DNA from: Janibacter sp. Soil728
Lineage (GTDB): Bacteria; Actinomycetota; Actinomycetes; Actinomycetales; Dermatophilaceae
Direction: 5' to 3'
Assembly (NCBI RefSeq): GCF_001428305.1
Contig: NZ_LMRZ01000003.1
Span: 444,225-508,224, forward strand
Length of the DNA: 64,000 bases
The notes below the pieces were generated by a model that was given only the letters and a program-made list of their open reading frames with translations, was not told where the DNA came from and ran no database searches. Shown piece after piece: positions 38,005 to 41,138 of this stretch. The translations under genes were made by a program, and so were the position numbers. The first letter of the stretch is position 1. Every line of letters starts with the position of its first letter.

Positions 38005-38301
38005 TCAGTCTTCGGTGAGGATGCGCGGCACGGCGAAGCGCTCGATCTCGGAGGCGGGCGCCATCGCGAGAGCCGCCTCGGGGGTCAACGACGCACGCAC
38101 CTCGTCCGGACGGGTGACGTTGACGATCGGCATCGGGTGGCTCATCGGCTCGACGCCATCGATCGGGGCCTGCTGCACGGCCGCGACCGAGGAGATGATG
38201 CTCGCGAGCTCGCCCACCATGGTGTCGAGCTCGGCGTCGGACAGGTCGATACGAGCCAACGAGGCGAGATGTGCCACGTCGTCGCGAGTGAGGTCAGCCA
38301 T
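38005..38301 (-). CDS. gatC: Asp-tRNA(Asn)/Glu-tRNA(Gln) amidotransferase subunit C
   Basis: A 98-residue clamp subunit that wraps around Gat[19 protein letters not shown] near residue 10 and the C-terminal [20 protein letters not shown] are hallmark segments. ATG 38301 is chosen because a TAGACT hexamer lies seven bases upstream, making this the leaderless first gene of the operon; an in-frame GTG or ATG further upstream is unsupported. Confidence 0.94.
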
Positions 38302-38308
38302 GCGGGAC

Positions 38309-38314
38309 AGTCTA
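38309..38314 (-). promoter_or_regulatory. Candidate -10 element of gatCAB
   Basis: TAGACT on the minus strand, seven bases before ATG 38301. Confidence 0.45.
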
Positions 38315-38354
38315 GGTTCCGGCGAAGGGAGCACCGCCCCCGGTCGGTCGGGCG

Positions 38355-39070
38355 GTGCTGCGCGCCCTTACCGGTGCGCTCACGCTCGCAGGAGCGGGCG
38401 TGGTGGTCGGGTGTGCCGACGCGCCGGGAGGCGAAGGGGTGCCGTCCGGGGTGAGGGTCGAGCGCGGCACCGTCTCCGGAGCGGGCATCCGGGACGCGAA
38501 GTGGGCACTCGTCCGGCCGGACGGTGACGCCGAGGTGGCCGTCTGCGTCGTGCTGCACGGCAAGGGAGGCCACGTCGACCAGGTCTTCGGAGGTGGGCTG
38601 CGGGCCGAGGAGGTCCTCGCCGACCTGCTGGCCGACGGGGACTTCCCTTCGCCGTGGCCGCGGTCGACGGTGGCGACAACTACTGGCAGGCCCGGGCCGA
38701 CGGGAGCGACTTGGGCGCCCTCGTCACCGAGCACCTCCTGCCGCTCCTCGCGGACGAGCAGGCGATCGACACGACGAGGATCGGACTGCTCGGCGGGTCC
38801 ATTGGGCGGGTACGGGGCACTGCTCCTCACCGGGTCGCTGGGGCGAGCGCGTGTGGCGGGAGTCGCGGCGGAGTCCCCGGCCCTGTGGTTCAACGCGGGC
38901 GGGACCCCGGCCGGCGCTTCGACGACGCCGAGTACTAGGCGGCTCACGCGGTCAGGGGCGCCAGTCGCGGCTGCGCGGCATCCCGGTGGGTGTCGACTGC
39001 GACGACGAGGACCCCTTCGCAGCTGTCGTGGATGGGCCGCCACCTGACAGCCTGATGCGGTCGGCGCTTG
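38355..39070 (+). pseudogene. Decayed esterase (alpha/beta hydrolase) lipoprotein gene
   Basis: Pieces of one alpha/beta-hydrolase are spread over three frames. A signal and lipobox-like VVVGCADAPG, then AVCVVLHGKGGH, read from 38355. A one-base loss near 38646 shifts to AVAAVDGGDNYWQARADG and RIGLLGGSIG, the nucleophile-elbow region. An extra base near 38808 returns to GYGALLLTG and ESPALWFNAGG. A further shift near 38915 gives FDDAEY and a stop at 38936, and the tail LRGIPVGVD-DDEDPFAA is in the third frame. With at least three shifts and one stop it cannot make the enzyme. Homology ends where the inverted-repeat element at 39071 begins. Confidence 0.8.
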
Positions 39071-39180
39071 TGACTCGCGGGTACGACGACAGGCTCCGTG
39101 GCCTTGGTGCACCCAACCCCCGGGAACTCGGCGTCGTTTGAGGCTTCGCTCGACACTCTGTCGTCGTACCCGCGCGTCAC
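39071..39180. repeat. Inverted-repeat pair 1 flanking the DUF559 gene
   Basis: Left arm TGACTCGCGGGTACGACGAC plus AG (39071-39092); right arm CTGTCGTCGTACCCGCGCGT plus CA (39159-39180). The arms are complementary over 22 bases with one mismatch. Arm starts are 88 bases apart, exactly as in pair 2. The interior is not shared with pair 2. Confidence 0.9.
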
Positions 39181-39227
39181 ATGTCCTGTGGACAACCCGA
39201 AGCACGCATCTGGGCCCCGCCACCAAA

Positions 39228-40163
39228 ATGCTTGCCATGCAGCCAGATCAGGTTCTTTCGGAACTGGGCGGGATGGGTTCTCGAGCCGACCTGCTCGCCA
39301 AGGTCACCGAGGCGTCCCTGCGACGAGCCCTCGCGGCGGGATCCGTGGTGCGCCAGTCCCGAGGGAGGTATGCCCTTCCCGTCAGGCCACGCATCGGCGA
39401 ACGCGCTGAGCTTGCAGAGCTGGCCCTCTCCGGCCAGCGCGCTGCCCACGAGTTGTCAGGGACTGCGATCCTGCTGAGTGCAGCGGCGCGCTGGGGCTGG
39501 TCGACCAAATGGGTCGCCACCCTCCCTCAGGTGGCCGTCCCCCTGGGCCGCAAGGTCTCTCCACGTGCTCGACGGTCGATCGACGTGCGATGGCGACCAG
39601 TGCTGCCGGGCGACCGCGACGACGGCTGGGTGACCTCTCGGGTGCGGACCGCCATGGACTGCGCGGTTCTACTACCGGCAGATGAGGGGCTGGCTGTCCT
39701 CGACTCCGCGCTGCGCGAAGGTGCGATCGACCGGGATGAGCTGCTCTTCGCTTCGGCGGGTCTGCCTCGCAAGTCTTCCAGCAGAGTCGAGAGCCTCGTC
39801 CGGATGGCGAGCCCTCTGGCGGCGAACCCCTTCGAGTCGGTGCTGCGCTGGATCGTCTCGGACATCTCGGGACTGAGCGTCCAGCCACAGGTGGAGATCA
39901 CGGATGGTGACGGGCCGATCGGCCGCGTCGATCTGGCGGACGAGGAGCTGCGGATCGTCATCGAGGCGGATTCCTTCGAGTGGCACGGGCAGCGCGAGGC
40001 CCTCGAGCGCGACTGCATCCGGTACAACCGGCTGGTCGCGGACGGGTGGCTGGTCCTGCGCTTCAGCTGGGACCAGGTCATGCACCACCCCGAGCGGGTC
40101 CGTGACCTCGTCCTTCGCACAGTAGCGCAACGTGACTCGCGGGTACGACGACACGTTGCGTGA
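39228..40163 (+). CDS. DUF559 (Vsr/PD-(D/E)xK-like) nuclease with N-terminal winged-helix region
   Basis: A 311-residue protein. The N-terminal part (about 1-60, VLSELGGMGSRADLLAKVTEASLRRALAAG) looks like an AbiEi-type winged helix; the middle is a helical linker; the C-terminal about 110 residues form a DUF559 nuclease: RVDLADEELRIVIEADSFEWHG supplies the D and E-x-D metal residues, followed by RYNRLVADGWLVLRFSWDQVM. Such proteins are common in actinobacteria with no established role; AbiEi members act as antitoxin-like repressors. The last ten codons (after VAQRDSR) are encoded inside inverted-repeat pair 2. Start ATG 39228, alternative ATG 39237. Confidence 0.78.
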   Translation: MLAMQPDQVLSELGGMGSRADLLAKVTEASLRRALAAGSVVRQSRGRYALPVRPRIGERAELAELALSGQRAAHELSGTAILLSAAARWGWSTKWVATLPQVAVPLGRKVSPRARRSIDVRWRPVLPGDRDDGWVTSRVRTAMDCAVLLPADEGLAVLDSALREGAIDRDELLFASAGLPRKSSSRVESLVRMASPLAANPFESVLRWIVSDISGLSVQPQVEITDGDGPIGRVDLADEELRIVIEADSFEWHGQREALERDCIRYNRLVADGWLVLRFSWDQVMHHPERVRDLVLRTVAQRDSRVRRHVA

Positions 40164-40242
40164 CCGCCGCCCCCACAGCCCCCGCCCCATGGGGGGCTGA
40201 CCATCCGATGTCCACCAACATGTCGTCGTACCCGCGCGTAAC
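40133..40242. repeat. Inverted-repeat pair 2 flanking the DUF559 gene
   Basis: Left arm TGACTCGCGGGTACGACGAC plus AC (40133-40154) is in the last codons of the nuclease gene. Right arm TGTCGTCGTACCCGCGCGTA plus AC begins at 40221. The left arm always reads CTCGCGGG and the right CCCGCGCG, the same asymmetric mismatch as pair 1. Confidence 0.9.
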
Positions 40243-40263: not shown

Positions 40264-40361
40264 GACGGCCCGGCGGGTGGGGTCACAGGAGGGGCACGGC
40301 GGACCGGGTCCGCTCGACGGCCCGGCGGGTGGGGTCACAGGAGGGGCACGGCGGACCGGGC
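40264..40361. repeat. 52-bp-period tandem duplication of the nitrilase gene end
   Basis: The segment starting GACGGCCCGGCGGGTGGGG and including TCACAGGAGGGGCACGGCGG occurs at 40264 and again at 40316. The second copy holds the last codons and stop of the nitrilase gene (RSAVPLL-stop); the first is a non-coding duplicate downstream of that stop. Confidence 0.8.
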
Positions 40362-41138
40362 ACTCTCGACGGCCTGCCGGTCGATCTCGCCGACCAGCAC
40401 GTCCTCTCCCCCGCCCAGGCGGGCGCGGACCTCGCCGGTGGGGTCGGCGAGGACGGAGCGGCCGATGCCGTAGGGGCCGCGCACCGAGTCAGCCGTCCAC
40501 GCCTGGCCGACGGCGAGCAGCCACGCCTGGGCGTCGTGGGCACGGGCCCGCGTCAGCAGGTCCCACTGACTCGCCTTGCCGGGCCCGTCACCCCATGACG
40601 CCGGCAGCACGACGACCTGCGCACCGGCCCGGCCGAGCGCGGTGAAGTGATCGGCGAAGCGCACGTCGTAGCAGGTGGCCAGGCCGACCCGCCAGCCGTC
40701 GACGTCGACCGTGACGACCTCCTCCCCCGGCGCCACGGTGTCGGACTCCGTGTTGCCGAAGGCGTCGTAGAGGTGGATCTTGCGGTAGCTCGTCTCGGTC
40801 GTGCCGGGCCCGGTGGCGAACAGCGTGTTGTGCACCCGCGAGCGCTCCCGGCCGTCAGCGGTCGTGATCTGGTCGGCGGGGGCGAACATACCGACGACGA
40901 TGCTCACGCCATGGCGCTCGGCGAGCGAGCGGACCCCGTCGGCGAAACGCCCGTCGAGCGGCTCGGCGACCGTGTCGAGCCGCCCGGCGAAGGAGGCCAT
41001 CGCCGCCTCCGGGTGGACCACCAGCCGCGCGCCGGCCTCGGCGGCGCGACCGGTGAGCTCGTCGATGCGCGCGAGGTTGGCGACCGGGTCGCCGGTGGAG
41101 GTCCACTGGCACCCCGCGAGGCGAAGAGAGTCACTCAC
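40335..41138 (-). CDS. Nitrilase superfamily carbon-nitrogen hydrolase
   Basis: A 267-residue amidase of the nitrilase fold with the catalytic triad E44 (HPEAAM), K120 (YRKIHLYD) and C156 (ATCYDVRF). YDAFGNTESDTVAPG and LLTRARAHDAQAW fit the omega-amidase/NIT branch, which removes amide nitrogen from 2-oxoglutaramate-like compounds; the exact substrate is not certain. Its GTG start overlaps the stop of the SRPBCC gene (GTGA), so the two are co-translated. The 3' end has been tandemly duplicated. Confidence 0.88.
   Translation of the reverse strand: MSDSLRLAGCQWTSTGDPVANLARIDELTGRAAEAGARLVVHPEAAMASFAGRLDTVAEPLDGRFADGVRSLAERHGVSIVVGMFAPADQITTADGRERSRVHNTLFATGPGTTETSYRKIHLYDAFGNTESDTVAPGEEVVTVDVDGWRVGLATCYDVRFADHFTALGRAGAQVVVLPASWGDGPGKASQWDLLTRARAHDAQAWLLAVGQAWTADSVRGPYGIGRSVLADPTGEVRARLGGGEDVLVGEIDRQAVESARSAVPLL

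Follow-up and report, generated by a model that had tools for sequence, protein, structure and literature searches.

The locus studied here poses the question of why a nuclease gene should lie between two matching sets of inverted repeats, and whether gene and repeats form a single selfish unit. It is situated in a 64,000-nucleotide stretch of the Janibacter sp. Soil728 genome, hereafter the window, for which an earlier note, made from the letters alone, had described two pairs of inverted arms with differing interiors around the gene. We found both pairs to be present as described, and the layout to recur far beyond the window.

Two pairs of inverted arms bracket a nuclease gene

The features of the locus are the following:

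38005..38334, minus strand: gatC (Pfam GatC), left flank of the insertion site
39070..39091, plus strand: left arm of the 5' pair, 22 bases
39159..39180, minus strand: right arm of the 5' pair, 22 bases
39237..40163, plus strand: AbiEi-DUF559 nuclease gene, 308 amino acids, with the ATG start taken at 39237
39237..39806, plus strand: AbiEi-like N-terminal part, about residues 1-190 (boundary approximate), a putative DNA-binding module by Foldseek
39825..40121, plus strand: C-terminal EDxHD/Vsr-like nuclease domain, about residues 197-295, by Foldseek and invariant residues
40132..40153, plus strand: left arm of the 3' pair, 22 bases, within the last codons of the nuclease gene
40221..40242, minus strand: right arm of the 3' pair, 22 bases
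40335..41138, minus strand: carbon-nitrogen hydrolase (nitrilase; Pfam CN_hydrolase), right flank of the insertion site

Both inverted-arm elements are 111 bp long (39070-39180 and 40132-40242), with arms complementary at 21/22 positions in the first pair and 20/22 in the second, and their 67-bp interiors are identical at only 30/67 positions. The 5' pair ends 56 bp upstream of the nuclease ATG, and the last codons of the gene indeed lie in the left arm of the second pair. The previously described geometry of 22-base arms at equal spacing holds, except that each pair starts one base earlier (39070 and 40132) and the arm starts are 89 rather than 88 bases apart. A fixed asymmetry of the arms had also been proposed. 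A T/G mismatch is seen in both window pairs (left arm ..CTCGCGGG, reverse complement of the right arm ..CGCGCGGG); however, the right arms are not identical, differing at one base (GTGAC/GTTAC), and other pairs of Janibacter sp. Soil728 have different bases at the mismatch position, so that the asymmetry is no rule of the family. Read by eye, the outer ends of the arms are mostly GTNAC or GCTAC, and a consistent GTAG, the tag of REP hairpins, was not seen.

Across the 64-kb window we detected four copies of the 22-base arm (at most three mismatches) against 0.01 expected, a number reached by none of 100 shuffles. A chance origin of the pairs is thereby ruled out, as it is by the 36/61 homologue loci against 1/242 control windows reported below. 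In single-stranded form, each element folded more favourably than every one of 200 shuffles, whichever strand was taken (z -4.55 to -5.85). Two further features adjoin the locus. Just past the second pair, at 40264-40367, two 52-bp direct copies (94% alike) overlap the end of the nitrilase gene, and between gatC and the first pair (38355-39047) lie about 700 bp of broken-looking open frames, possibly a decayed gene, in which the two frames scanned had no Pfam match.

An AbiEi-like protein joined to a Vsr-like nuclease domain

The window protein matched the Pfam family DUF559 with 31.3 bits (cut-off 20.6), MTES_1575 with 34.8 bits (cut-off 38.2) and AbiEi_4 weakly, and gave no match to Y1_Tnp. 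Among the 38 sequences of our alignment, 34 matched MTES_1575, 31 DUF559, eight AbiEi_4 and one AbiEi_1 (E 0.001). A sequence-profile search of the PDB returned a single weak match, 3hrl (E 0.24). The AlphaFold model of the protein has a mean pLDDT of 92.2, and its top PDB matches in Foldseek were AbiEi (6y8q, E 2e-4) and Rv2827c (1zel, E 4e-4), with the C-terminal domain matching I-Bth0305I (3r3p, TMt 0.80), 3hrl (0.79) and Vsr (1vsr, 0.57) at E-values of 0.02-0.05. Four residues, E200, D232, H250 and D259, are invariant in 38/38 aligned sequences, and in our reading these are the candidate residues of an EDxHD active site. Judged by its predicted structure, the protein is an AbiEi-like part joined to an EDxHD/Vsr-like nuclease.

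Six neighbouring window frames scanned with Pfam comprised an amidase, GatC, CN_hydrolase, Polyketide_cyc2 and two without a match, and no AbiEii/DUF1814 toxin partner was found among them. PADLOC reported only weak AbiEi/PDC-S37 matches. The search for carriage of the nuclease on plasmids gave no match, and that of viral contigs two weak matches to the nuclease domain.

Occupied and empty sites in Janibacter

Close orthologues of the nuclease were detected in 12/16 Janibacter genomes, and all 12 are flanked by pairs on both sides, their core starts separated by 86-88 bp, when up to two mismatches are allowed in the 11-base arm core. The inner stop reported in four orthologue matches is located in the last few codons. 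Exact window-family pairs are found in 13/16 Janibacter genomes, with 1 to 15 in each, and the reversed pattern gave none. They occur in all 12 genomes with a close orthologue and are absent from three of the four without one, counts that ignore kinship. In these three genomes (G001, G004 and G006), in which no exact arm pair was found, the gatC and nitrilase matches are 69-99 bp apart, as against about 2,020 bp when the site is occupied. In G015, a 79% complete genome, we found seven pairs and no close orthologue, the strong locus match covering the gatC side only. Nearly all pair-nuclease-pair units of Janibacter stand at this one locus, which we count against a selfish unit.

A second, also bracketed, copy of the nuclease is found in J. 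corallicola (G003, locus L091). Among the 16 genomes the corresponding junction holds a pair-nuclease-pair in G003, a solo pair in four (Janibacter sp. Soil728, G010, G012 and G015) and no pair in 11, with six of the latter junctions measuring 468-691 bp and five 49-154 bp; we regarded three extra matches in G010 and G012, each with three mismatches, as due to chance. In terms of which elements are present, the junction is compatible with a single site in a solo and an occupied form; a shared insertion hot spot is a possible alternative. Two other loci deserve mention. In G009 (L068, 1193-2499) the complete pair-gene-pair unit stands in reversed orientation with respect to its flanking genes, with a third, tandem pair alongside. 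On a contig of a Pseudonocardia MAG (L094, 2-572) there is a gene end with 79% identity to the window protein and a pair at its 3' end, reflecting either transfer or bin contamination.

Distant homologues and paralogues carry arms of their own

The earlier note had regarded absence of the arm beside other DUF559 homologues as telling against its proposal. The window arm is literally absent from the distant ones examined, including those of Nocardioides, Sinomonas and Quadrisphaera, but many of them carry other cognate inverted pairs at the equivalent positions instead. We examined 61 homologue loci, a set that leaves out the close Janibacter orthologues but contains three Janibacter paralogues as well as near-identical relatives, and so its members are not all independent. 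One shared arm, inverted on both sides of the gene with 5' and 3' spacing equal within 1 bp, was present at 36/61 loci as against 1/242 shifted windows, these being the windows that yielded any candidate, at a cut-off of 35 chosen after the scores were seen. The figure of 36/61 is probably low, since gene ends are approximate at loci with partial matches; the 25/61 loci that fail this strict test are counted against a selfish unit. In a first test based on four arms, 28/61 loci had scored 38 or above, with a maximum of 36 in 120 shifted control windows, and 4/145 cross-locus controls, among which related loci share arms, scored 38 or more.

A further 40, more distant loci (27-40% identity) included 18 from Janibacter genomes and four that are also among the 61. 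Here 22 were flagged as bracketed, 19 of them with a score of at least 80, a cut-off likewise chosen after the scores were seen. At this level the controls gave 1/22 negative windows and 2/40 loci with flags away from the gene, both with one pair beside the gene; below it, off-gene flags arose in 15/40 distant loci and 7/22 negative windows. Janibacter sp. Soil728 itself has three paralogues (L155, L156 and L157), each with its own arms on both sides; together with the window gene, which has different arms again, these make up four of the five matches in that genome.

Similarity between arms was correlated with that between proteins (Spearman 0.52-0.62 over 27 sequences, reached in 0/2000 permutations). 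The correlation was highest with the nuclease domain (0.62) and lowest with the wHTH (0.52), unlike what reading of the arm by the wHTH alone would predict, a point against the selfish reading. Shared descent would by itself suffice to give a correlation of this kind.

Spacing of the arms and orphan pairs

Pairs also occur as orphans away from the nuclease genes. In Janibacter sp. Soil728 there are 11 exact pairs of the window family, two of them in the window, and the reversed control gave none; this count and those that follow include gene-flanking pairs. The arm of paralogue 2 forms 16 pairs in five genomes, 11 with a spacing of 62-63 and five of 73-74, with none between. That of paralogue 4 forms nine pairs in four genomes, all at 35, and that of Sinomonas nine, spread over three of seven genomes, with a uniform spacing of 53 bp and variable interiors. 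The reversed pattern gave eight matches for paralogue 2, 11 for paralogue 4 (at most one per genome, hence no pair) and none in the Sinomonas control. Unpaired matches, defined as those with no partner within one mismatch and counted against a selfish unit, made up 35/67 for paralogue 2, 11/29 for paralogue 4 and 11/29 for Sinomonas.

Within families, the spacing thus varies stepwise, by about 11 bp at a time. Additional steps, of about 11-12 bp and each seen at a single locus, come from inner gaps of 31 and 43 within one arm type and of 36 versus 47-48 (with one at 45) in Nocardioides. For the families taken together a universal 10.5-bp ladder was not borne out, the Sinomonas inner gap of 38 falling between classes. 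We infer from the steps that the arms are helically phased on duplex DNA, and because each step is close to one helical turn, two proteins on a duplex would be preferred over a folded single strand.

Two orphan pairs at L025 (5002-5315), with different inner arm sequences, are 216 bp apart and adjoin GGGAGCGGGA-like repeats. Many Janibacter orphan interiors, such as L027 5002-5099, have a central near-palindrome like CCCCGGAAATCCGGGG, which is seemingly weaker in gene-flanking pairs and may be a terminator or a third site.

Genomic context and turnover of the orphans

Removal of 18 gene-flank rows and one extra flank-side pair (L147_1380) from 50 orphan rows left 31, and removal of nine sharing flanks left 22 distinct Janibacter sites; duplicates had one or both flanks in common with another row, L034/L193 and L162/L170 only one. 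With genes oriented by a simple gene finder written for this analysis, 14 of the 22 sites are convergent, seven tandem and one divergent, as compared to a background of 44/225 convergent. The binomial p for the convergent excess, 3e-5, was computed on 14/24, before two further duplicate rows emerged. This is not a promoter pattern, and as the context is mostly 3' or convergent we rejected the orphans as operators. One site common to four genomes (L038, L144, L149 and L172) does lie upstream of a gene, being divergent in three and tandem in L172.

Several orphans occupy orthologous sites in different Janibacter species. In eight comparisons of such sites, not all independent, and with the non-orthologous pair L025/L193 left out, 370/422 arm positions, 387/523 interior positions and 702/1083 positions of the 60-bp flanks were conserved. 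That the arms are better kept than the interiors could point to a host function. Other sites differ between relatives: the orphan at C4:679800 is missing in G012, G004 and G002, and the fourth relative inspected, G010, has an apparent arm remnant that looks like the leftover of a deletion. Likewise, G013 and G005 lack an orphan that G007 has at 916320, and in G014 it is degenerate; in the case of two more G007/G013 orphans, the regions predicted to be orthologous failed to match. Orphan turnover is real and mixed in direction, with losses included. At the junctions inspected we saw no transposition event, and no clear target duplications at empty sites, which counts against a selfish unit.

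Relationship to known systems

The closest parallel in layout is that of the REP/REPIN sequences and their RAYT transposases (REPtrons, TIRtrons), described as genes flanked by repeats with solitary copies in extragenic DNA (PMC3733652, PMC3116915). Like these, our nuclease gene is flanked on both sides, in 12/12 close Janibacter orthologues and 36/61 other loci, and dispersed solitary pairs are present. Unlike RAYTs, the enzyme is by fold an AbiEi and EDxHD/Vsr-like nuclease and not a Y1 HUH transposase, and unlike in REP/RAYT systems each family keeps to a set arm spacing that varies stepwise by about 11 bp, a pattern we read as duplex sites. The unit is accordingly REPtron-like in layout, and membership in the RAYT group fails on the enzyme.

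A similar nuclease fold is found in the EDxHD homing endonuclease I-Bth0305I (3r3p, TMt 0.80, E 0.02), which is described as dimerising on a target of nearly 60 bp (PMC3943268). Unlike genes of homing endonucleases, however, the present one lies between two intact site pairs rather than interrupting one, and solitary sites exist in the same genome; interruption of a site in the homing manner was not found, the three empty gatC sites belonging to genomes without exact pairs. The best overall fold match is to the AbiEi antitoxins of type IV toxin-antitoxin systems and to Rv2827c, with AbiEi_4 recognised in 8/38 members; AbiEi is reported to bind two 23-bp inverted repeats (PMC7319586), comparable to the 22-25 bp arms seen here. 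The present proteins differ from AbiEi antitoxins in being fused to a nuclease, in having pairs at the 3' end and dispersed as well, and in lacking the toxin partner in the window frames scanned. The C-terminal domain belongs with the Vsr/DUF559/MTES_1575 restriction-like nucleases; MTES_1575 is described as the Vsr-type domain of a HEPN fusion protein in PMC3710099, the main text of which does not contain the phrase 'inverted repeat'. In the titles and abstract openings of the literature searched, mostly outside subscription papers and outside bioRxiv, we found no description of DUF559/AbiEi nucleases tied to flanking or dispersed repeats.

A proposed selfish nuclease unit and its alternatives

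Sequence comparison has revealed a recurrent layout, arms that are specific to lineages and follow the protein, scattered orphans, a fixed spacing per family, conserved candidate residues, and occupied and empty sites. These observations suggest that the bracketed nuclease is most likely a selfish element that operates in the manner of a REP/RAYT unit or homing endonuclease, a reading to which we assign a probability of about 0.5. As to the original idea, that the nuclease and its cognate elements form a unit is favoured by recurrence across species and genera, by the orphan geometry, by empty sites without pairs and by the lack of a PF01797 match in the Janibacter sp. Soil728 genome, and such a unit may travel as a whole; the stem-loop form then envisaged for the elements is doubtful. 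Under the proposed mechanism, each 22-25 bp arm would be bound by one AbiEi-like N-terminal module, with one arm per protomer, and two inward-facing arms at a fixed, helically phased distance would together make a full site for two proteins, recognised as duplex rather than as hairpin. The C-terminal EDxHD/Vsr-like domain would cut or nick at the paired site, and repair of the break would move or copy the paired-arm DNA, sometimes with the gene. Dispersal would thus be driven by the nuclease, and solitary pairs would be products or remnants of break repair, tolerated mostly at the 3' ends of genes. It should be noted that an active nuclease facing many intact sites would be expected to damage its host if left unregulated, which counts against this reading; regulation by the 5' pair may coexist with a selfish role.

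Pure regulation is also conceivable, although we consider it unlikely. The protein would then be an AbiEi-like autoregulator with the 5' pair as its operator, the 3' pair as a terminator or second operator, and the orphans as a small regulon or as exapted bidirectional terminators kept by the host. AbiEi and Rv2827c are reported to repress their own promoters via 23-bp inverted repeats (PMC7319586), and the 5' pair, ending 56 bp before the ATG, is suitably placed; the conservation of orphan arms above interiors, the frequent location of orphans between convergent genes and the one four-genome site upstream of a gene are further points in favour. However, the AbiEi and Rv2827c repeats lie in the promoter, 3 and 13 bp apart, whereas the window arms are 67 bp apart with a second pair over the stop codon. 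The orientation of the 22 orphan sites, the candidate active-site residues invariant in 38/38 sequences and the lack of a toxin partner in the adjacent frames scanned also argue against it.

More doubtful is a site-and-nuclease system that the host keeps for maintenance of the chromosome, for repair or as a defence against incoming DNA, the paired arms serving to mark the nuclease, to load it or to restrain it. The conserved candidate active site, the close orthologue in 12/16 Janibacter genomes and the orphans at orthologous sites across species are in line with this, but arms and spacing vary from lineage to lineage, the paralogues have sites of their own, three Janibacter genomes have neither the orthologue nor exact pairs, and the PADLOC matches to AbiEi/PDC-S37 are weak. 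Finally, it is very improbable that the pairs are ordinary REPINs or MITEs which a different transposase moves in trans while the nuclease is a bystander: the inverted doublets dispersed outside genes do resemble REPINs (PMC3116915), but the cognate pairs bracket the nuclease family with arms that co-vary with the protein, and RAYT-driven REPINs were rejected because the Y1 transposase profile PF01797, the only profile used, found no match in the Janibacter sp. Soil728 genome, while the control was positive in 5/14 genomes.

Beyond this locus, AbiEi-EDxHD nucleases could constitute a large undescribed selfish class in Actinomycetota, each paralogue having a private, helix-phased duplex site, bracketing itself and seeding solitary sites, with several independent systems per chromosome; we hold this broader claim tentatively, at somewhat less than even odds. 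If the selfish reading is true, the substrate of AbiEi-DUF559 proteins would become readable at each locus, and many natural enzyme-site pairs would become testable at once. It would also mean that bracketed dispersal of the REP kind evolved in the absence of a known transposase, and that there is a nuclease family whose specificity co-varies with its visible sites.
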